From Armatimonadota bacterium (GTDB lineage Bacteria; Armatimonadota; Armatimonadia; Armatimonadales; Armatimonadaceae), in assembly GCA_026392155.1 (NCBI GenBank), contig JAPLCP010000138.1, forward strand, positions 1 to 33,448: a DNA stretch of 33,448 bases, in the 5' to 3' direction. Below the pieces are notes generated by a model. That model saw only the letters and a program-made list of their open reading frames with translations. It did no database searches and was not told where the DNA came from. This document shows, in pieces, positions 1,354 through 11,549 of this stretch (position 1 is the first letter of the stretch; every line of letters begins with the position of its first letter). The position numbers and the translations under genes were made by a program.

Positions 1354-2385
1354 CTACTCGATGCCCTCTTCTTTGAGCTTCTCGGCAAAGTTGGCGCGGT
1401 CGATTAGTGTGCCTTTGGTGTAGGTCTCTTTGGCGGGCTCTTTGCCGTCTTTGATCCAGTTGTACATCGCCTCCGCCGTCGAGAAGCCGTGGGTGCGGGC
1501 GGAGAGGAGTACGGAGGCATGGAAGCCCGTCTTGGCTTTCTTCAGGTCGTCCTTGCCGCTGGTGCCATTGATCCCAATCCCAATCACATTCTCGGGCGCG
1601 ATAGATTTTTGCTCGGTGGCGCGGACAAAGCCCAGCACACCATCGTCATTGGACGAGTACGCGACCCAGTGCTTGATCTCGGGGTGCTGGGTGAGGATAA
1701 TATTGGCGGCATTAACCGCCGTTTCCATTTGTTGTGGTTTTTTCCAGGCGCTGAGAAAGAAGTTCTTCTCCGGCAGCCCCGCCGCTTTGAGAGACTCACT
1801 CGCGCCATCGGTGCGCTGCTTGCAGGACTCGATCTCGTCGACCGTGAGCACCGCCGCCCCGACTTCCGCTAGGTTCCAGCCACGCTTCTTGGCTTCTTCG
1901 GCGAGGGCTGTCCCCACGCTCTTGCCGATCTCAGAGGCGGAGATTCCGAGGTAGGCAACATCGGTGAGGGGCTTGCCATCTGGGCCCAGAAGCCTATCGT
2001 CCACGGTGAGTAGCTTCAGGTTCTTCTCTTTGCACTTGGCCACAATTGTCGCACCCAGCTTGGTGTCGGGGGTGCAGATAATCAGGCCCTGAGCGCCCTG
2101 CGTGGCAATATTGTTGATCGCACTGTCCACCCCCTCCGCGTCTTTGGCCTCGATCTTGATCAGCGTAAATCCGTATTTTTTCGCGGCCTCGTCGGCGAAC
2201 TTCCACTCGGTCTGGAACCAGGGCTCGGCGGAGTCTTTGACCACAAAGCCAATCTTAACATCGGACTTGGGCGCATCGACAGCGGGCTTGTCGCCCCCGC
2301 TCGCTGCCGGAGGGTTGCTACTCGGGCACCCGGTGAGCGTCAGTGCCCCCAGGGCTGCCATCATCAGAAAATATCGTCGCTTCAT
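1354..2385 (-). CDS. araF: L-arabinose-binding lipoprotein AraF
   Basis: Periplasmic sugar-binding protein that delivers L-arabinose to the AraG/AraH transporter. It is 343 residues long with a lipoprotein signal: a positively charged start MKRRYF, a hydrophobic stretch, and lipobox LTGC with the lipidated cysteine at residue 20. The mature part follows E. coli AraF closely: KIGFVVKDSAEPWFQTEWKF at the N-terminus, then ICTPDTKLG, TVDDRLLG, QHPEIKHW, IGIGINGTSG and YNWIKDGKEP. The EPWFQTEWKFAD block is characteristic of arabinose-binding proteins rather than of ribose or galactose binders. The gene precedes araG, with a structured repeat between them. Only 36 bp separate its start from the upstream ATPase stop, so read-through from the preceding operon is possible; I see no convincing operator. 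Confidence 0.92.
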   Translation of the reverse strand: MKRRYFLMMAALGALTLTGCPSSNPPAASGGDKPAVDAPKSDVKIGFVVKDSAEPWFQTEWKFADEAAKKYGFTLIKIEAKDAEGVDSAINNIATQGAQGLIICTPDTKLGATIVAKCKEKNLKLLTVDDRLLGPDGKPLTDVAYLGISASEIGKSVGTALAEEAKKRGWNLAEVGAAVLTVDEIESCKQRTDGASESLKAAGLPEKNFFLSAWKKPQQMETAVNAANIILTQHPEIKHWVAYSSNDDGVLGFVRATEQKSIAPENVIGIGINGTSGKDDLKKAKTGFHASVLLSARTHGFSTAEAMYNWIKDGKEPAKETYTKGTLIDRANFAEKLKEEGIE

Positions 2386-2421: not shown

Positions 2422-3234
2422 CTATAGTCTTGGGAAGAGGGCGTGGATCTCAGCGAGGACACGCTGATACTCGGGGTCGCCTGTGATTCCCTCACGCCAG
2501 GCAAGGCCACAGGCCATGAGATCGAAGACTTTTTGGACACGTGCGCCGGGGATAGGATTGCCCACTTCGTCGCGATCTCTGCCCAGAAGCCAGAGGGTGT
2601 CGCAGGTCTCGACAGCGGCCTCAATGTCGTGGGTCACTAAGACAAAGGTCTTCTGTTCATCCACCGCAGCCGCCTCGCCAAGAAGCTTGATGACATTTTG
2701 AACCGCAACCGGGTCGAGGCCAGAGAAGGGCTCGTCCATGAGAACAAGAAACTCGGAGCAGAGGAGCTGCTGGGCAATGGCGACACGCTGGCGCTGGCCG
2801 CCAGAGAGCTGGATCGGGTATTTCTTGGCGTGCTCTGCCATCCCAAAGCGCTCCAGCAGGTTCATCGCCTTGGCCGCATCGTTGTCCGTGGCGACTAAGA
2901 GATTGGAGAGAACGGTGCGGTGGGCAAAGAGTGGGTAGTCCTGCGCCACGACACCAACCGTGCCGCGTTTCACGGGATGGCCATCGGCTCCGAGTAAGAC
3001 GCGTCCGCTGGTCGGCTCCATCAGGCCCGCCAGAATCCGAAAGAGCGTCGTCTTGCCCACGCCCGACGGCCCGAGGAGGCCCACGATCTGGCCTTGCTCG
3101 CGTCCGGGGACATGGACGTTTTTCACTTCTGCGTTGACCTCTTTTAAGATCGGGCGGCCACTATAGCTATGCGAGATGTTCTCCAGCTTGAGCAGTGTCT
3201 CCCGAACTTCGTAGATGGTGCTGGCTGTGCTCAT
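2422..3234 (-). CDS. ABC transporter ATPase, NitT/TauT-type
   Basis: ATP-hydrolysing subunit that would couple to the permease encoded immediately upstream. The 270 residues carry a complete set of motifs: Walker A GPSGVGKT (55-62), Q-loop in VAQDYPLF (96-103), signature LSGGQRQ (143-149), Walker B FLVLMDEPFSGLD (162-174) and the switch histidine in VTHD (200-203). It resembles SsuB/TauB/NrtD importers of sulfonates, taurine or nitrate. The C-terminal 50 residues (from VGNPIPGARV on) carry an extension of unknown use. The start codon overlaps the permease stop as ATGA (3231-3234), so the two are translationally coupled. Substrate is unknown, and the unusual OmpA-fused binding protein in the operon argues against a routine nutrient importer. 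Confidence 0.85.
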   Translation of the reverse strand: MSTASTIYEVRETLLKLENISHSYSGRPILKEVNAEVKNVHVPGREQGQIVGLLGPSGVGKTTLFRILAGLMEPTSGRVLLGADGHPVKRGTVGVVAQDYPLFAHRTVLSNLLVATDNDAAKAMNLLERFGMAEHAKKYPIQLSGGQRQRVAIAQQLLCSEFLVLMDEPFSGLDPVAVQNVIKLLGEAAAVDEQKTFVLVTHDIEAAVETCDTLWLLGRDRDEVGNPIPGARVQKVFDLMACGLAWREGITGDPEYQRVLAEIHALFPRL

Positions 3235-4010
3235 GCATCGCTCCGCTCTTTGTTTAAGTCCGCCCAGGGGCAGACAATCTGGCGCAAGAGACCCAGAGCG
3301 TAGTCCTGGAGTAGCCCGACAGCGAGCACGAGAAGCTGGATCGCAAAGACTTTATCCATGTGGAAGTACTTGCGCTCGATGTCGAGCTGCACGCCGAGGC
3401 CACCCTCGCTACGATAAAGCGCCTCGACCATCGGCAGGAGCGTCCAGCCAATCGCGGCGTTCTGGCGAATAGCGTCGAAGACTTTATCCAGCGGCCCACG
3501 AATCACCACCTCCCAGACCACGCGCCACTCGGAAAGGCGAAGCGTTCGGGCATAGTCGTACTGCGATCGTGGAATCTCGGCGATAATGGCGAGAAACGAC
3601 GTCAGCAGAAACACGCTGATCCCGAGGGTCATCATGGCGAGCTTCACGGGTCTATCGCTGCCAAAGGCGAGCATGAAGACCACGGAGAAGCCGACGAGCG
3701 ACAAAAAACGGCCCCGCGAGATCACCAGCGCCAGTGGTCGAAAGATCGGGAGAACGGTCAGGTAGGCTAGTCCCAAAGAGAGTAGCGTCGCCAGGCCGAG
3801 TGACTGGAGAAACAGCCCGAAGCTGGTAAAAAGCTCCGTCCCTATGCCACCGCGCCAGAGCCCACCGAGCGCTGAAAAAACCTCGCCAGGCTGTGGCAGC
3901 ACTTTTAATGTCGAGGTCAGCCAGATGACTAAGAAAATCACCGCCTCCCCGAGCAGAATCAGACGAAACGTGGTCGGGGAGATGACTTTGTTGGGAGTAA
4001 AAATTCCCAT
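3231..4010 (-). CDS. ABC transporter permease, SsuC/TauC-like
   Basis: Integral inner-membrane subunit of 259 residues with about six hydrophobic segments, beginning around residues 13-35 (LILLGEAVIFLVIWLTS). The segment YDYARTLRLSEWRVVWEVV, followed by IRGPLDKVF, matches the cytoplasmic EAA loop that docks on the ATPase in binding-protein-dependent transporters of the SsuC/TauC/NrtB class. It starts 8 bp after the stop of the OmpA-fused binding protein and ends in an ATGA overlap with the ATPase gene, so the three form one translational block. The transported molecule cannot be read from the sequence. Confidence 0.8.
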   Translation of the reverse strand: MGIFTPNKVISPTTFRLILLGEAVIFLVIWLTSTLKVLPQPGEVFSALGGLWRGGIGTELFTSFGLFLQSLGLATLLSLGLAYLTVLPIFRPLALVISRGRFLSLVGFSVVFMLAFGSDRPVKLAMMTLGISVFLLTSFLAIIAEIPRSQYDYARTLRLSEWRVVWEVVIRGPLDKVFDAIRQNAAIGWTLLPMVEALYRSEGGLGVQLDIERKYFHMDKVFAIQLLVLAVGLLQDYALGLLRQIVCPWADLNKERSDA

Positions 4011-4018
4011 GTTTTTTC

Positions 4019-5830
4019 TTAGTTGGCTCTTAGAACGATCTCAACACGACGGTTTTTGCTTTTGCCATCTTCGCTCGTGTTTGGCGCAACGGGCTGGGTC
4101 TGTCCGTGCGAGAATACCTTGATCCGGCCTGTCGGGAAGTTTGCAGGAGCGGTTTTCTCTAGCCAAGCTTTCACCGCAAAGGCGCGTGCCTCCGAGAGCT
4201 GCATGTTCTTTGTGGGGTCACCAACATTATCGGTGTGGCCATGAATCTCGACTGCCGTGTTCGAGGCAACCAGCAGGCTACTCTTGAGCTTCTCCAAGTC
4301 TTTGATGGAGGTTGGGTTAAACTCCGCCTTGCCGGTCACGAACTGAATCGGCCATTTTCCCTCCGAGAGCTTGGCTTTCGGAGCACTACCGGTGCTGACC
4401 TTGGGCACTAGGTTGGTCTTTGCCACCGTGACGGCGCCGCTACCAGCACCTGCAATCACGGCTTTCAGGTAGGAAAGATCCTGCACCTGCTCTGCCGAAG
4501 GGTAGCCACTGACCACTTCCGGGTACTGCTTCACGACCAGATCACCAAAGACTTTGTAGACGGCGGCGTAGAGATTGGCAGAGCCGGGAGCAAGTCCGAA
4601 CGTGTAGGCCGCATCCGAGATGTTGTTGGCACGGGAGCCGCCTAGCTCGACATCAAGGCCCGTCTTGTCTTTCTCCACGACGCCCTTGTAGTACTTTTTC
4701 CAGTAGGCGGCATCGCTCTCTTTATAGACAGCCGCGCTGATCTCCGCTGCCTGCCCAAGCGCTTGATCGCTCTTTTGAACGGCTTCGCCGCCCGAGAGTG
4801 CGGCCTTCAGCAAGCCTTGAACCAGCTTCGGGTTCGCTTTGCACCACTTATCCACCCCGATAATCACGCAGGGCATCTGGCTGGCGTACTCTTTGGTGGA
4901 GACGATCGAGACGAGGCCGCCTTTTTTCTGGGCAACATTGACATCGCCGGGAGTCCAGGTGACCACGCCGTCCACCTTGATCTTCATGGTCTGGCCGGTC
5001 TTCTTGCCGTTGCGCACCACGGGACGCTCCTCGGTGTAGCCGGTGATGTACTTTTCCCCCGCGTCTAAGTAGTCGCCGGTATTGATCCAGTTGATCGCAT
5101 CGGGGTCGTAGGTCTTCTCATCGGGGTTGGTCTTGAGGTCGTTGTCGCCGATCCACTTCTGCGCGATATTCCAGTCACCGTCGCGCAGGACGCCCGCAAC
5201 GACGCCGCCACGGGCGCTCTGCGGGTCTTTCTTCCAGTCCACAGGCCCCATGAACTTGTCCTCACCACGAGAGAAGCCAATCGCGCCGATCACTTTGGGG
5301 CGGTACTCTGGCCCGATCTTGGCGAGCGCATCGTCCACGCCTTTGAGAAACGCCGCAGAGCCGTCGCCCATCACCGTCACAAAGTGCGCCCCTGCCGTCG
5401 GGTTTTTCTCGCCCTGTGAGAGCTTGGTCGCAAAGGTCACCAGCGCCTCGGTGAGCTTATCGTTCATGTCTTGGCGCGCGAATTTTAGGTTCACGCCGTT
5501 CTGACACATCAGGCTGCCCTTGGTGGATTGTGGGCCGCCGTTGGCAAAGTGTAAGCCCATGTGCGCGTTCCAGGCATAGCCCAGAAGCCGCACTTCTGGC
5601 AAGTCCGTACAGCCAGGTTCACGACCAGGCATGACGACGGGGCCTTCATCAGGTTTGTTAGGATCGGTGCCCGGCACTCCACCAGGGAGATCCAGCTTAT
5701 CGCCTTTCACCGAGGCTTTCTCGGTTCCAGCAGGAACCAGCTTGCTACCAAAGAGGCGGTAGGCACCCGCGGCACCTCCGACGACCAAGAGAAATATAAC
5801 CGCTTTTCCAGCGGGAGTGAGTTGTGGCAT
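4019..5830 (-). CDS. Membrane-anchored solute-binding protein fused to OmpA peptidoglycan-binding domain
   Basis: A 603-residue fusion. Residues 8-27 (AGKAVIFLLVVGGAAGAYRL) form an uncleaved-looking N-terminal membrane anchor. Residues 75-470 or so resemble NMT1/SsuA- or PstS-like periplasmic binding proteins. Residues 491-603 are a classical OmpA C-terminal domain, with IQFVTGKAEFN at its start, HGHTDNVG (530-537) carrying the conserved peptidoglycan-contacting aspartate, and KNRRVEI (592-598) carrying the conserved arginine. The protein would sit in the periplasm tied to both the inner membrane and the cell wall. A strong Shine-Dalgarno (AAAGGAGG) supports the ATG at 5830. It lies between two helical-protein genes and an ABC permease/ATPase pair. 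Binding proteins are normally free or lipid-anchored, so cell-wall tethering implies a structural or sensing job; this is inference. Confidence 0.82.
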   Translation of the reverse strand: MPQLTPAGKAVIFLLVVGGAAGAYRLFGSKLVPAGTEKASVKGDKLDLPGGVPGTDPNKPDEGPVVMPGREPGCTDLPEVRLLGYAWNAHMGLHFANGGPQSTKGSLMCQNGVNLKFARQDMNDKLTEALVTFATKLSQGEKNPTAGAHFVTVMGDGSAAFLKGVDDALAKIGPEYRPKVIGAIGFSRGEDKFMGPVDWKKDPQSARGGVVAGVLRDGDWNIAQKWIGDNDLKTNPDEKTYDPDAINWINTGDYLDAGEKYITGYTEERPVVRNGKKTGQTMKIKVDGVVTWTPGDVNVAQKKGGLVSIVSTKEYASQMPCVIIGVDKWCKANPKLVQGLLKAALSGGEAVQKSDQALGQAAEISAAVYKESDAAYWKKYYKGVVEKDKTGLDVELGGSRANNISDAAYTFGLAPGSANLYAAVYKVFGDLVVKQYPEVVSGYPSAEQVQDLSYLKAVIAGAGSGAVTVAKTNLVPKVSTGSAPKAKLSEGKWPIQFVTGKAEFNPTSIKDLEKLKSSLLVASNTAVEIHGHTDNVGDPTKNMQLSEARAFAVKAWLEKTAPANFPTGRIKVFSHGQTQPVAPNTSEDGKSKNRRVEIVLRAN

Positions 5831-5885
5831 TTCTTAGCCTCCTTTACTTTCTACAGTGAGATCAGACCCGGTATGCGCCAAAAGG

Positions 5886-6653
5886 TTACGCGGCATATCT
5901 CGAGGGGCCGGTATCCAGGCTGAAAAACTCTAAAATATCGTCGATTTTATCGGCCTCGGACTCGCACCGGGCTTGTGCGGTGGCGAGCTGCTGCTGGATG
6001 CTGGCGACAATGGCCTTTTGCTCTTCTATCCGCGCTTGGAGCGCTTCGATCTCGGCCTGGGCATAGCTGACACGCTCCGAGGTGACTTTCTGCAAGTCCG
6101 TGACATAGGCTGAGAGGGCGGCGAGCTTGCGGGAGGCATCGGCGACAATGGTCTCGGCGCTGGCTCCCATGGTCGCACCCATCGTGGTGAGAGTCGCGGC
6201 AACCATCTGGCGCTGCATGTCTAGGGAGAGCCCGGCGGGGAGCTTGCCCAAGAGCTCGCGGGTCTGCTCGGCACCGAAAGACACACTGGGGAGCTTGGCA
6301 CCGGCGTAGATCGCCTGCACATCCACGTTGCCATCGGGGAGAAGTGCGCCTGAGGTCTGCTCGGCGGAGACCTTGATCTCGTCTAGGTTGGGGCCATCAC
6401 TCTGCCGCACAAGCTGCTCAATGGTCTGAGGGAGCGGGGGAGGAGTCGCCGCGCCCACACCTGCCGCAATCGCCTGGGAGCGTTTCTCAATATCGGCAAG
6501 CTTCTTGTCTAAGTCCGACATCTCCGCGCTAGGAGCAGGGGCGGAGGTGGGGATGGGACTTGAGAAGTTGCGCGGTGCGGGCTCTTCTTCCTCGCTTTCG
6601 GGCATCACCACAAAAAGCCCGACAGCTTTGCGAAGTTTATCAGCAATTGGCAT
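5886..6653 (-). CDS. Coiled-coil cytoplasmic protein of unknown function
   Basis: 255 residues with no signal peptide or membrane segment. It starts MPIADKLRKAVGLFVV, followed by an acidic EEEE patch and a proline/serine-rich linker (about 20-45). A first short helix (45-65, LDKKLADIEKRS) and a central glycine/alanine-rich region (about 110-170, including GKLPAGLSLDMQRQMVAATL) follow. A long C-terminal coiled coil spans about 180-240 (YAQAEIEALQARIEEQKAIV). The end is DDILEFFSLD. I do not recognise the family. It is the second gene of the five-gene unit, 28 bp after the first and 55 bp before the OmpA-fused binding protein, so it probably acts with them at the cytoplasmic face of the membrane. 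Confidence 0.7.
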   Translation of the reverse strand: MPIADKLRKAVGLFVVMPESEEEEPAPRNFSSPIPTSAPAPSAEMSDLDKKLADIEKRSQAIAAGVGAATPPPLPQTIEQLVRQSDGPNLDEIKVSAEQTSGALLPDGNVDVQAIYAGAKLPSVSFGAEQTRELLGKLPAGLSLDMQRQMVAATLTTMGATMGASAETIVADASRKLAALSAYVTDLQKVTSERVSYAQAEIEALQARIEEQKAIVASIQQQLATAQARCESEADKIDDILEFFSLDTGPSRYAA

Positions 6654-6681
6654 AGAGTTGTTTTACCTTACAAATCATAGA

Positions 6682-7536
6682 TCATAGATCAAAGCGACGC
6701 GACATATCATCGTAGGCCGCGATTTCATCTAAAAGATTGGTCATGGCATCGGTTTGCGTGACCACGCCCTCAATATCCGCGAGAACTTGCTCCGGTGGCC
6801 TTGCGCGGATCTGGTCGTTGATCAGGCCAAACGAGTCCTCCAAGAGCTGCATCTGGTGGCCCAAGTTCGTTAAGATTCGCCCGATCCGCCCGACATACTC
6901 ATGGCGCTGGGTCAGCACCTCTTTACGCTTGTCGAGAACAGCCTGCGTGTTGGAGTCTTCCTCCGACTTGCCCTCGATCTGCGCGATCTCATCGTCGAAG
7001 CGCTCCTGAATGGTGGTCACCATCCGGCGGGCACGGTCTTCGTTGGGAATTGGCGGACCATCTTTGTCGCGCCGCTTGCTCTTCAGCCCTACCACCACTT
7101 CGGCGTAGACATTTTCGAGATACTGCGCAAACTCCACCTCGCGGCGGGCAAACATTAAGAACTTCTCCAGCAGATAGTCCAGCTTGCGGCAGACCTCCCG
7201 CATCCAGTTCTCATTGGAGAGCGCATGGCCATCGAGCTGCGTGCGAATATCCTCTAGGCGCGTGAATCGCTCTTGGACATTCTCCGAGATCACCAGAAAG
7301 ACATCATCTCTAAGCTTCTTGCGCCGCGCGGTCACTTCCGCATCGAAGCGGTGGGCGAGGCGCTGCTGGTACCAGCGGGAGTCGGGGACAAAGAGCAGAT
7401 AGGCCGCTTCTGCGACCACCCCAAAAAGTAGAGGAAGAGGATTGAGAAGCGCTGCCGAGAGAGCCGCAGCCCCCGCCAGCCCGACGACGTTGTAGTTCTC
7501 CTTAAATGCTTCGGCCAGCCGATTCTTACGTGCCAT
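6682..7536 (-). CDS. Membrane-anchored helical protein of unknown function
   Basis: 284 residues if translated from the ATG at 7536 (MARKNRLAEAFKENY); an in-frame GTG at 7554 would add six residues. I prefer the ATG because a TAAAAT box lies 8 nt upstream, as for many other genes here. Two closely spaced hydrophobic segments (about 16-31 and 33-50) are followed by an almost wholly helical, highly charged domain (60-284), with arginine/lysine-rich stretches (RRKKLRDD, LKSKRRDKDG) and predicted coiled coils. I know no family with these features. It is the first gene of the unit with the OmpA-fused binding protein and the ABC transporter, and probably provides a membrane scaffold for them. Confidence 0.7.
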   Translation of the reverse strand: MARKNRLAEAFKENYNVVGLAGAAALSAALLNPLPLLFGVVAEAAYLLFVPDSRWYQQRLAHRFDAEVTARRKKLRDDVFLVISENVQERFTRLEDIRTQLDGHALSNENWMREVCRKLDYLLEKFLMFARREVEFAQYLENVYAEVVVGLKSKRRDKDGPPIPNEDRARRMVTTIQERFDDEIAQIEGKSEEDSNTQAVLDKRKEVLTQRHEYVGRIGRILTNLGHQMQLLEDSFGLINDQIRARPPEQVLADIEGVVTQTDAMTNLLDEIAAYDDMSRRFDL

Positions 7537-7550: not shown

Positions 7551-7559
7551 ACACGAATT

Positions 7560-7693
7560 GCCCCGCCGGTTGGAGCGGCGAGGCTGGAGAGCACTTCGTG
7601 CTACAAAGGGCGTGCCGCCCATAGGGAGTGCATTATGGCCGGAACGGCCTTTGTAGCTTTAGCTCTCTAGTCCCGCCGCTCCAACCGGCGGGA
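7560..7693. repeat. Structured palindromic repeat, copy B
   Basis: Homologue of the element at 1227-1353, again placed directly at the stop codon of a minus-strand gene (DUF1552 stop at 7695). The outer arms pair almost perfectly (left 7563-7581, right 7671-7693). The inner left hairpin is GGGC-GTGCC-GCCC (7608-7620) and the inner right hairpin is GGCC-GGAAC-GGCC (7637-7649), flanked by CTACAAAG and CTTTGTAG. It also ends about 10 nt before the -10 box of the divergently placed upstream operon, so it may insulate the two transcription units. Confidence 0.85.
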
Positions 7694-7694
7694 T

Positions 7695-9044
7695 CTAAAA
7701 GAGCTGCTGAACCTTGCCGGTGGAGTCGCCGAGGGTCTCGCCGGGGACGCCGAAGCGATCCAGCATGGTGATGAGCAAGTTCGTCATCGGGGTGCCATTT
7801 TTATACTTGATGTGCTGACCGCCCTTGAGCGTTCCACCCGCGCCGCCTGCGATGAGCAGTGGCAGGTCGTCGTGGTTGTGCCGGTCGCCGTCGCTGATCC
7901 CGCCGCCGTAGACCAGCATGGTGTTGTCGAGAAGCGTGCTCTTGCCCTCTTTGACACTCTGCATCTTCTGGAGGATATAGGCAAGCTGCTCCACATGGAA
8001 GCGGTTGATCTTCTTAAGACTCTCCAGCTTCTCCGGGTTGCGGCCATGGTGCGAGGTCTCGTGGTGACCGTCGTTGATGCCGATCTGCTTGTAGGCGCGA
8101 TTCGACCCCTCGTTGGCAAACATAAAGGTCGAGATGCGTGTGATGTCGGCTTGGAAGGCCAGCACCATCATGTCCCCAAGCAAGCGCACGTGGTCTGGAT
8201 AGTCGGGCATCCCGCCGGACATCCGGGCCTTGAGCGCCTCGCCGCTGACCCCCGTCTCCTTGCCCGCTTTCTCCAAGAACGACATGCGCCGCTCGATCTC
8301 GCGGATCCCCGTGAAGTACTCGTCCATCTTGTGGCGGTCGTGCGCCCCTAAACGTCCCTGGAGCGACTTGGCATCTTCCAGCACAAAATCTAAAATGCTC
8401 TTATTGTTGAGCTTGCGCTGCTCGCGTGCCTCGGCGCTCTCGTTCACATCTTCTCCACCAAAGAGCCGCTCAAAGACGAGGCGCGGGTCGGTTTCTTTTG
8501 AGACGGGGGAGTTCTCGGTGCGCCAGGAGATCGTGTTGGAGTAGGCGCAGGAGTAGCCGGAGTCGCAGTCGCCTGCCAGCCCGCCGCGCTCACAGCCGAT
8601 CTCCAGGCTGGGGAAGCGAGTGAGAGAGCCACGCTTGGCTGCCGCAAGCTGATCCGCCGAGAGCCCCACTTTGATATTGGCACCACTGGTTTTCACCGGC
8701 TTGCAGCCTGTCAGCCACGCCGCCGCCGAGCGCGCATGGTCGCCGCCGCCATCACCGTGCGCAAAGGCCCAGTTCTGGGTGAGGCCGGTGAGCACATTGA
8801 AGTGATCTTTTAGCCCTGCCAGAGGCTCCAGTGCGTGTGGCAGCGCTCCCAGAGCACCTTCGGTGGCGGGGGTCCAGTGCGCCATGTTGATACCGTTGGG
8901 CACGAACAGAAACGCCATTCGCAGAGGCGCTTCGCCCTCGCTCTTTCCCGTCTGGGCAAAGGCAATCGCTTCCAAGTAAGGCAGAGCGAGTGCCACGCCC
9001 GCTCCTCGCAAGAGCGTCCGTCGTGTCATGTTTGCATTTTTCAT
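7695..9044 (-). CDS. DUF1552-family secreted protein (Tat signal)
   Basis: 449 residues from the ATG at 9044 (MKNANMTRRTLLRG); an upstream TTG at 9056 is less likely. The start is a twin-arginine signal (TRRTLLRGAGVALALP), so the protein is exported folded. The body matches the DUF1552 family: FLFVPNGINMAHWTP, ARSAAAWLTGCKP, DYPDHVRLLGDMMVLAFQAD, HHETSHHG and a C-terminal LLDNTMLVYGGGISDGDRHN with HDDLPLLIAGGA. Such proteins resemble the alkaline-phosphatase-like DUF1501 group and are almost always paired with DUF1592/DUF1588-type cytochrome-like proteins, as here (60 bp downstream of that gene). The biochemical role is not established. A TATAAT at 9056-9061 could give it an internal promoter. 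Confidence 0.85.
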   Translation of the reverse strand: MKNANMTRRTLLRGAGVALALPYLEAIAFAQTGKSEGEAPLRMAFLFVPNGINMAHWTPATEGALGALPHALEPLAGLKDHFNVLTGLTQNWAFAHGDGGGDHARSAAAWLTGCKPVKTSGANIKVGLSADQLAAAKRGSLTRFPSLEIGCERGGLAGDCDSGYSCAYSNTISWRTENSPVSKETDPRLVFERLFGGEDVNESAEAREQRKLNNKSILDFVLEDAKSLQGRLGAHDRHKMDEYFTGIREIERRMSFLEKAGKETGVSGEALKARMSGGMPDYPDHVRLLGDMMVLAFQADITRISTFMFANEGSNRAYKQIGINDGHHETSHHGRNPEKLESLKKINRFHVEQLAYILQKMQSVKEGKSTLLDNTMLVYGGGISDGDRHNHDDLPLLIAGGAGGTLKGGQHIKYKNGTPMTNLLITMLDRFGVPGETLGDSTGKVQQLF

Positions 9045-9104
9045 GGTGTTTTCCAATTATACTTGAAGTTGTATCCCCTTCGCTTGCCGGAGGGGGTCGC
9101 CGTC

Positions 9105-11549
9105 TCAGCGGCGGGGGGAGGTGGATTCATCCCCGCGCCGCTCGCGGAAGGGCTTGCTGGTGATCACTGCCTCCACCATCGCGGAGAACTTGTGGTTTTT
9201 TGCTGCGACGCTCTTTGCCATCGCGTCTAGGTTACATCTATCGGTGCGCTCGACACCACGCCCCAGAGCATAGGTGAGTAGGCGCTCAGTCATCGCCTTG
9301 GTGAACTGGCTTTTCTTGCCCAGTAGCACGCGCTTGAGCTCCTTGGGGCCGGTGAACTTATTGCCATCGGGGAGCGTGCCACTGACATCCATGGGCTTGC
9401 CCGCATCGTCGGTGCGCCACTTGCCAATCGCATCGTAGTTTTCCATCGCCAGCCCAATCGCATCCATCTGCGCATGACAGCTGGCACAAGCGGGGTTGCT
9501 CCGGTGAATTTCCAGGCGCTTTCGGAGATTTTCGGCCTCAATCGGCTTGCCGGGAGCGTCCAGAGCGGGGATATTAGGCGGCGGTGGTGGGGGCGGTGTT
9601 CCCAGAAGATTTTCCAGCACCCACTTGCCACGCTTTACCGGCGAGGTGCGCCCCGGATTGCTGGTCAGCGTCAGCACCGAAGCCATGGAAAGCACGCCGC
9701 CGCGCTGCGCTCCTTGAAGGGCTACTCGCCGGAACTCCTCTCCTTGAACTCCCGGCGTGCCGTAGTGCTTGGCCAGAGTCTCGTTGAGGTAGGTGTAGTC
9801 CGAGTCCAAAAACTCTAGGACACTGCGGTCTTCCTGGACGATACCCGAGAAGAAAAGCTCGGCTTCCGTGCGCATGGCGTTGCGGAGCGGGTCGTTGAAG
9901 CTGGGGAAACGCGCGGTGTCGGGCTGCACAACACTCACTTTACGCAGCTGGAGCCACTGCCCAGCGAAGTTCTCCGCAAGTGCACGGGAGCGTGGGTCTT
10001 TGAGCATGCGCTTTGCCTGGGCCAGTAGCACCCCCGGGCTTTGGAGCTTCTTCTGATCCGCCAGCCCCAGTAGCTCGTCATCGGGCAAAGACGACCACAA
10101 AAAGTACGAGAGGCGCGTGGCTAGCTCATGGTCGTTGAGCTGCCGCCGGTAGCTGGGGTCATCAGGCTTGGCATCGGGCTCGGGGCGGAACAAAAAGCTC
10201 GGCGAGACGAGAATTCCCTGGAGGGCAAGCTGAATCCCTTTTTCAAAAGACTGCTTTTGCGCCTTTGCCAGCCGCGAGAGCCCGATCAAGCGGGTGACTT
10301 CTGCCTCGGTCACAGGCCGACGGAACGCGCGGTGGGCCAGCGGAGCCAGCACGGCCTTGGCGGCACGGTTCCACTCGGCATCGCTGGTATCGTCGGGCGT
10401 GTCAATCACGATCTTGCGGTGGGAGAAAGGCAGCTCGCGCCGTGCGGTGCTATTGATCACCTCAGGCGATGCCTCGATACTAACAGACTCAATGTAGAAA
10501 TTGCGGTCACGACGGCCCTCAGGGAGCTTTTCGTCGTAGGCATCGTTGAGGAAAGCAACCCCGATTTTCTGCTTACCCGCCTGCTCAATCACTATCGGGG
10601 TTTTGTAGTCTTGCTGGTTGTTGGGGCCGGCAAAAACATCAAAGCCTCGGATGGCGGCTCCTTTGTGCTGAATCGCCATCTTCGCGGGCTCCGGCCCCAT
10701 TTTATCGGGTTTACCGTCCTTGCCCTTGGCGATCAGACGGGTATCTCTGCCAAACGTGGACGCGCCCGCTCGCACGATAATCGTGTAGGTGCCGGGAACT
10801 GGGAACGTGTGCTCGATCGTGGCCTCGCCGTTGGTGGCAAGCTGGTAGCCTTCTGCGGAGATACTGCCAGGGCCTTGGAGCAAACCCGCAGGAAACTTCT
10901 GGAGGCGCGGCTTGTCTTCGGCAGCGATAATGGCGGCTTGAGCGGTCTTGGCGGCGGCGCTCAGATACTTTTCCATCAGCAGCGGCGAGAGCGAGAGCAC
11001 GTCCCCGATATTGTCGAAGCCATAGCCCACATCATCGTTGGGGAAGTCATCCGCAGGGCGCACATTGACCCCGAGCAAGTCCCGGATCGTGTTGTTGTAC
11101 TCGGCGCGATTCAGGCGGCGCATGGTAACACGGCCAGGGTCGTTGATCTGGCAGTCCGCTTGTGAAAACAGGCTCTCCAGCGTGTTGCCCATGCGCTTGC
11201 GCTCCGCATCGGTGGGCTGGGGCATATCGGCGGGCGGCATTCGCTTCTCCAAAACCACCCCGCTCACCCGATCCCATGAGGTGCGGCTCTTGAGCACCGC
11301 CGCGAAGCTTTTTTCGCTGCTCAGATTGATCGCTCCGGAGCCATTGGGAGCCGTGTGGCAGCCCACACAGTATTTTTGGATCAGCGGCAAAACATCACGC
11401 TCAAAGTTCCCCGCAGGTTGGGTGGGTGCTACTTTTGTGCTGGCTGAGGCCGTTTTTTTCTGCGTGGTTTTTTTTTGGGGCAGAGCCGCCCCTGCCGTGA
11501 GAGCGGCAAGAGGTAGGCCAATAACGAGAAGGGTTGCGTATCGAAACAT
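9105..11549 (-). CDS. Planctomycete-type cytochrome protein (DUF1587/1592/1588/1585 domains)
   Basis: 814-residue exported protein. It has an N-terminal signal (residues 1-22), then a lysine/threonine-rich linker, then a haem-binding-type motif CVGCH (61-65) in the PSD1-like position. This is followed by RRLNRAEYNNTIRDLLGV (DUF1587), a jelly-roll-like region around 230-365 (ending in DRNFYIESVSI), DUF1595/1592 segments (RAFRRPVTEAEV, LATRLSYFLWSSLPDDELL), DUF1588 (RGGVLSMASVLTLTSNPGRT, then PVKRGKWVLENLLGTPPPPPP) and a second CASCH motif (688-692) before DUF1585. This architecture is typical of planctomycetes, verrucomicrobia, acidobacteria and armatimonads. It is thought to act in extracytoplasmic redox or polymer oxidation, but the substrate is unknown. 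The DUF1552 partner gene follows. Confidence 0.9.
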   Translation of the reverse strand: MFRYATLLVIGLPLAALTAGAALPQKKTTQKKTASASTKVAPTQPAGNFERDVLPLIQKYCVGCHTAPNGSGAINLSSEKSFAAVLKSRTSWDRVSGVVLEKRMPPADMPQPTDAERKRMGNTLESLFSQADCQINDPGRVTMRRLNRAEYNNTIRDLLGVNVRPADDFPNDDVGYGFDNIGDVLSLSPLLMEKYLSAAAKTAQAAIIAAEDKPRLQKFPAGLLQGPGSISAEGYQLATNGEATIEHTFPVPGTYTIIVRAGASTFGRDTRLIAKGKDGKPDKMGPEPAKMAIQHKGAAIRGFDVFAGPNNQQDYKTPIVIEQAGKQKIGVAFLNDAYDEKLPEGRRDRNFYIESVSIEASPEVINSTARRELPFSHRKIVIDTPDDTSDAEWNRAAKAVLAPLAHRAFRRPVTEAEVTRLIGLSRLAKAQKQSFEKGIQLALQGILVSPSFLFRPEPDAKPDDPSYRRQLNDHELATRLSYFLWSSLPDDELLGLADQKKLQSPGVLLAQAKRMLKDPRSRALAENFAGQWLQLRKVSVVQPDTARFPSFNDPLRNAMRTEAELFFSGIVQEDRSVLEFLDSDYTYLNETLAKHYGTPGVQGEEFRRVALQGAQRGGVLSMASVLTLTSNPGRTSPVKRGKWVLENLLGTPPPPPPPNIPALDAPGKPIEAENLRKRLEIHRSNPACASCHAQMDAIGLAMENYDAIGKWRTDDAGKPMDVSGTLPDGNKFTGPKELKRVLLGKKSQFTKAMTERLLTYALGRGVERTDRCNLDAMAKSVAAKNHKFSAMVEAVITSKPFRERRGDESTSPRR

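Follow-up and report, generated by a model that had tools for sequence, protein, structure and literature searches.

The 33,448-nt window analysed here is contig C82 of a 4.77 Mb genome (label G000) of an Armatimonadota bacterium, and carries on its minus strand five consecutive genes for an OmpA-fused binding protein, the two components of an ATP-binding cassette (ABC) transporter and two helical proteins, numbered 1 to 5 from position 7536 down to 2422. Gene 1 (6682–7536, 284 aa) codes for a short membrane hairpin followed by an all-helical body, and gene 2 (5886–6653, 255 aa) for an N-terminal helix, a proline-rich linker and a long helical C-terminus; neither belongs to a known family. Gene 3 (4019–5830, 603 aa) combines an N-terminal anchor (5745–5830) with an NMT1/SsuA-like type II periplasmic binding domain and a C-terminal OmpA domain of the peptidoglycan-binding type (4019–4345, about residues 495–603); this fusion is designated PBP-OmpA. 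The product of gene 4 (3231–4010, 259 aa) is an SsuC/TauC-superfamily ABC permease of type I whose EAA loop (ARTLRLSEWRVVWEVVIRG) departs from the canonical form, and gene 5 (2422–3234, 270 aa) codes for an ABC ATPase with intact catalytic motifs. Genes 1 to 4 are separated by successive gaps of 28, 55 and 8 bp, and genes 4 and 5 overlap by 4 bp; the open reading frames and domain searches thus bear out the gene arrangement and the protein types given in a preliminary description of the window. Alignment of relatives places the start of gene 1 at the ATG at position 7536 and does not favour the upstream GTG at 7554.

The five genes form a genuine module that occurs in several families of the phylum. 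Among 201 Armatimonadota genomes surveyed, 25 were counted as having a usable PBP-OmpA, either close and full-length (18 genomes, 55–85 % identity) or diverged (seven genomes), with the protein of G030 being recognised by profile; G188 was left out, as its PBP-OmpA is only a fragment at a contig end, with no gene 1, in an assembly that is 73 % complete. Gene 1 occurs in all 25 of these genomes (in G006 counted from its start only, at a contig end) and in 6 of the 176 without PBP-OmpA (Fisher p about 1e-26, for genomes that are related and hence are not independent trials), whereas gene 2 gives a strong match in 22/25 and 2/176, respectively. Furthermore, 22 of the 25 genomes have gene 1 no more than about 5 kb from PBP-OmpA, mostly together with gene 2, so that the earlier claim of a tie between the helical genes and the OmpA fusion survived a co-occurrence test set in advance. 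The linkage of gene 1 extends to diverged PBP-OmpA proteins of about 21–26 % identity. Gene order differs by lineage, genes 1 and 2 being situated upstream in the genus of the window and in G118 and after the ATPase gene in most others; since the genes stay together despite being rearranged, this is a stronger sign of joint function than a single inherited order would be. A scan of a genome collection with gene 1, which rests on two conserved motifs and could thus miss distant relatives, yielded 30 records whose titles give an Armatimonadota lineage or plain bacteria and one titled as Actinomycetota (SYKE01000058), the latter agreeing in match position with G035, a genome of the same Armatimonadota sample.

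The OmpA domain of gene 3 (PF00691, residues 497–594) is well above its cut-off (E 2.7e-18; 66.6 bits versus 27.2) and matches PDB profiles with E values down to 1.8e-28. Residues D534 and R549 are invariant in 18 aligned sequences, and in OmpA domains the Asp and Arg of this conserved pair bind peptidoglycan. Gene 3 shares these two residues and the above-threshold domain with OmpA-like proteins such as YiaD, Pal and MotB, but here the domain is joined to a binding domain of transporter type and not to a barrel, a lipoprotein or a stator. With its hydrophobic N-terminal anchor, which does not look cleaved, the sequence fits the earlier suggestion that the fusion spans from the inner membrane to the wall. 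The binding domain matches NMT1 below the cut-off in the window protein (E 0.028) and down to 4.1e-10 in aligned members, and its signature region aligns with the VVWEP of the sister clade, WEP having changed to WTPGD; on both grounds we assign the domain to the NMT1/SsuA kind. The preliminary description had named a phosphate sensor among several possibilities; the matches do not support phosphate binding, the weak ones being to NMT1, with a Phosphonate-bd match in 2 of the 18 members. In a plasmid collection nothing covered 80 % of gene 3, the matches listed falling on or near the OmpA domain.

Gene 4 matches BPD_transp_1 (E 7.7e-9), with TauC as the top NCBIfam model (3e-6). The EAA coupling loop of such permeases has a consensus with a conserved Gly followed by a Pro; the glycine is replaced in all 16 permeases examined from the clade of the window (by Arg in 15 and His in one), and the next proline is lost in all 16. 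The four sister-clade permeases inspected have a canonical loop, DIGAS...IPGALP or similar. This alteration counts against a textbook importer in the clade of the window, without excluding transport. Gene 5 matches ABC_tran, and its family retains the Walker A, signature, Walker B and H-loop motifs in 15 of 15 members checked; the label "SsuB-like" given to it earlier holds at the family level but not as a specific name, as the CysA and PhnT models score higher than SsuB.

An alignment of gene 1 with 16 relatives contains 34 invariant columns, and the best-conserved part is a C-terminal block, FGLIxDxxRARxPEQxL. The hairpin (about residues 14–50) includes a 29-residue stretch without charges, with a proline-containing turn at its centre and polar flanks, and the glutamate immediately after the hydrophobic stretch, E43, is invariant. 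The AlphaFold model (predicted local distance difference test, pLDDT, 75) has two 16-residue helices followed by six longer ones; the hairpin could cross the membrane as two short spans or be only half inserted. Since the balance of charges on either side of it is weak, the helical body can be placed on the cytoplasmic side only tentatively. The N-terminal helix of gene 2, which follows the pattern MSIRxxLRKAAGLFVELP, is moderately amphipathic (mean hydrophobic moment 0.27–0.53); after it the protein continues with a variable, proline-rich linker and finishes in a long C-terminal helix with the invariant end EFF..D...S..A (EFFSLD..PS..A).

The profile and fold searches of both helical proteins that the preliminary description had called for placed neither of them in a Pfam or NCBIfam family at the cut-off, and gave no PDB sequence match for gene 1 and no Foldseek hit at E ≤ 0.001 for either. 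Structure comparison gave nothing above the helical-bundle background for gene 1, and for gene 2 (model pLDDT about 75) gave VIPP1 at a Z score of only 3.6, within noise. Kinship of gene 1 with BAR proteins was also considered and rejected: BAR and F-BAR chains reach Z 8–10, but these values are equalled or exceeded by those of designed bundles and of gamma-tubulin proteins, and helical bundles in general reach Z 13 without kinship. The likeness seen in the model is one of common arrangement only.

In one family (f6), three loci have PspA_IM30 next to genes 1 and 2. In two sister loci (L036 and L042) the operon runs on into a PspA_IM30 gene and has a gene for an anchored SBP_bac_11 protein upstream, L036 also including an AAA ATPase; in a third (L099, in G004) SBP_bac_11 is followed by gene 1, gene 2 and PspA in turn. 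In a second lineage (loci L094 and L098, in G002 and G031), gene 1 has as neighbours PspA and a protein that carries the C-terminal domain of TonB (TonB_C), with no PBP-OmpA or ABC genes. SBP_bac_11 also pairs with gene 1 at L092, L095, L102, L103 and L104. The partner is thus PBP-OmpA plus ABC genes, SBP_bac_11, or TonB_C with PspA, while gene 1 is constant, which indicates that the periplasmic partner is interchangeable. Most partner proteins begin with one form of anchor, namely (K/R)(L/I)(K/T)PxGK, a short hydrophobic helix and the end GxxxG-(Y/W)(R/K). In gene 3 it reads LxPxGK...GxxxGxYR, and it is present likewise on the partners of SBP_bac_11 type; a search of the window's genome with the SBP_bac_11 protein gave as sole match residues 2–54 of gene 3 (E 4.7e-4). 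That two different binding domains have the same anchor suggests that the anchor makes a specific contact, which from these sequences would most simply be with gene 1.

Part of this arrangement is already in print. In a 2024 survey of the phage shock protein (PSP) system, Ravi et al. (PMC11237479) predicted an operon type in which genes for an ABC ATPase, a permease and PBPB-OmpA occur with PspA/Snf7 and an AAA+ ATPase (example OGG56892.1), and whose theme includes a gene described as "Snf7 with TM"; the survey left the role of the ABC and PBPB-OmpA genes open. Compared with the operon as described there (PMC11237479), the window has the same fusion of a PBPB-type domain with OmpA and the linked ABC ATPase and permease genes, beside helical proteins, and the sister loci L036, L042 and L099 have PspA, with an AAA ATPase in L036. 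However, the operon in the window has neither PspA nor an AAA ATPase, and the comparisons made do not identify genes 1 and 2 as PspA or Snf7, although gene 1 may correspond to the gene described as "Snf7 with TM". For these reasons we consider the operon a variant of the published theme rather than a full member. The theme itself is not new; what is new here is that genes 1 and 2 are two unclassified families, without a Pfam match or a significant PDB fold.

We favour, with a probability of about 0.5, the reading that the five genes code for one wall-tied, ATP-driven envelope-maintenance complex, a variant of the operon that associates ABC and PBPB-OmpA genes with PspA/Snf7. Gene 3 would have its N-terminal helix in the inner membrane and its OmpA domain on the peptidoglycan, so as to keep the binding domain in the periplasm by the gene 4 permease, which the gene 5 ATPase would power or gate. 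The hairpin of gene 1 would sit in the inner membrane, leaving the helical body to face the cytoplasm. Gene 2 would dock at the cytoplasmic membrane face via its N-terminal helix, and both gene products may be membrane-shaping or scaffold proteins that fill the role PspA has in the sister loci. A periplasmic signal, be it a ligand or the condition of the connection to the wall, would be read by the binding domain and passed through the anchor helix, the permease and the ATPase to genes 1 and 2, which might then stabilise or remodel the membrane locally. We infer all four of these elements: topology, complex formation, direction of signalling and membrane remodelling. The nearest variants suggest a maintenance of the membrane of the PspA type, a reading absent from the preliminary description. 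As in the PspA/IM30 and LiaH phage shock systems, helical proteins are expected at the membrane face and PspA itself is present in sister loci; PspA also begins with an amphipathic helix, as gene 2 does. A more specific version strikes us as doubtful: the ABC transporter would act as a trans-envelope transducer, in which a wall-clamped binding protein and a permease whose coupling loop is rewired exert ATP-driven control over genes 1 and 2, as two new membrane-shaping families and stand-ins for PspA in Armatimonadota, gene 1 with its hairpin and BAR-like helical body and gene 2 as an amphipathic-helix protein.

Several observations weigh against an envelope-maintenance complex of this kind. 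PspA (PF04012) is absent from the window locus, a difference from the phage shock systems, and the only PspA above cut-off in the genome lies on another contig (C171); for the AAA ATPase of L036 there is no full-length match in the genome either, only AAA-domain matches of 25–58 bits. Genes 1 and 2 show no detectable sequence relation to the phage shock proteins. PF04012 was not among the first 25 families listed for 16 members each of gene 1 (E up to 1) and gene 2 (E up to 0.1), nor was Snf7 among those listed for the gene 1 family, gene 1 consisting of a membrane hairpin and a helical body; profile comparisons with the PspAs of the loci gave probabilities of 0.1 % and 1.1 %, and on these comparisons neither gene was assigned to PspA or Snf7. 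Gene 1 is remote from PBP-OmpA in 3 of the 25 genomes, at 58 kb in G004, at 14 kb in G199 and on another contig in G144. Additionally, the genome of the window has three diverged paralogues of gene 2 (L139–L141; C95:27295–27750, C116:7355–7783 and C107:5841–6215) in contexts unrelated to the module, one of them directly after a ParB gene, as also occurs in the sister genome G013; the gene 2 family is thus wider than the five-gene module.

The genes could otherwise code for an ordinary importer of the SsuABC/TauABC type, with the binding protein tethered near the permease by its membrane anchor and its hold on the wall, and with genes 1 and 2 supplying accessory structural parts. The SsuABC/TauABC/NMT1 superfamily includes the permease, the ATPase and the binding domain alike, the ATPase motifs are intact and the EAA loop is canonical in the sister clade; moreover, OpuA and GlnPQ are ordinary importers whose binding domains are tethered or fused to the permease, a precedent that we counted in its favour. 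Nevertheless, the binding protein of the window differs from those of SsuABC/TauABC in being both anchored and fused to OmpA, the EAA loop has lost its glycine and proline throughout the clade, and the near-perfect co-occurrence with two helical proteins that are not transporter components is hard to accommodate in an importer, as is the presence of gene 1 without adjacent ABC genes beside SBP_bac_11 (L095, L099, L102–L104) or beside TonB_C and PspA (L094, L098). We thus regard an importer as rather unlikely. The altered coupling loop, which hints at an unusual substrate or direction of transport, together with intact ATPase motifs, a wall-linked periplasmic partner and the TonB_C proteins of one variant, would suit a trans-envelope lipid or polymer machine instead, with an ABC motor, a wall-bound adaptor and inner-membrane helical partners in a role like that of Mla or Lpt. 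However, the permease is of the importer type, no further envelope gene, for instance one for an outer-membrane component, turns up constantly next to the loci (most of the neighbours were not searched against families), and the fold searches, run for genes 1 and 2 only, found no lipid carrier, which makes such a machine quite improbable.

We give at most an equally slim chance to a pure sensor that moves no solute, in which the wall-clamped binding protein would report wall distance, tension or ligand to genes 1 and 2. The clade-wide replacement of the EAA glycine and proline beside an intact ATPase, the change of the binding-domain signature to WTPGD and the variants without an adjacent transporter all point in this direction, but the ATPase motifs are conserved, which implies a continuing need for ATP turnover, and no tension-specific feature was identified (the linkers were not modelled). 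The wall-tension sensor suggested in the preliminary description would be one version of this reading. For the question of how bacteria outside the model phyla sense and repair envelope damage, the locus offers a compact, phylum-wide set with two unclassified families, exchangeable periplasmic parts on one anchor and a coupling-loop change throughout a clade; with these features together, the connection of solute binding with wall attachment and upkeep of the membrane can be tested directly.

Beyond gene 5, at a distance of 36 bp, there is a gene for a sugar-binding lipoprotein (1354–2385, minus strand). It was ruled out as a sixth member because it adjoins the module only in the genus of the window, and it goes with the RbsA/MglA-type ATPase encoded at 1–1215. 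A nested palindromic repeat of ca. 140 bp (outer arms of 31 nt, inner arms of 24 nt), with about 40 copies in the genome, brackets the five genes plus the sugar-binding gene, with copies at 7555–7694 and 1225–1354; the sugar-type ABC system at 1–2385 has a copy between its ATPase and binding-protein genes. The repeat is possibly a terminator or an element similar to repetitive extragenic palindromes (REP) or miniature inverted-repeat transposable elements (MITE). On the other side, the two adjacent genes at 7695–11549, which we take to resemble a pair often found in Planctomycetes, DUF1552 and DUF1592-type (cytochrome-c-motif), also adjoin the module in the sister genome G013.

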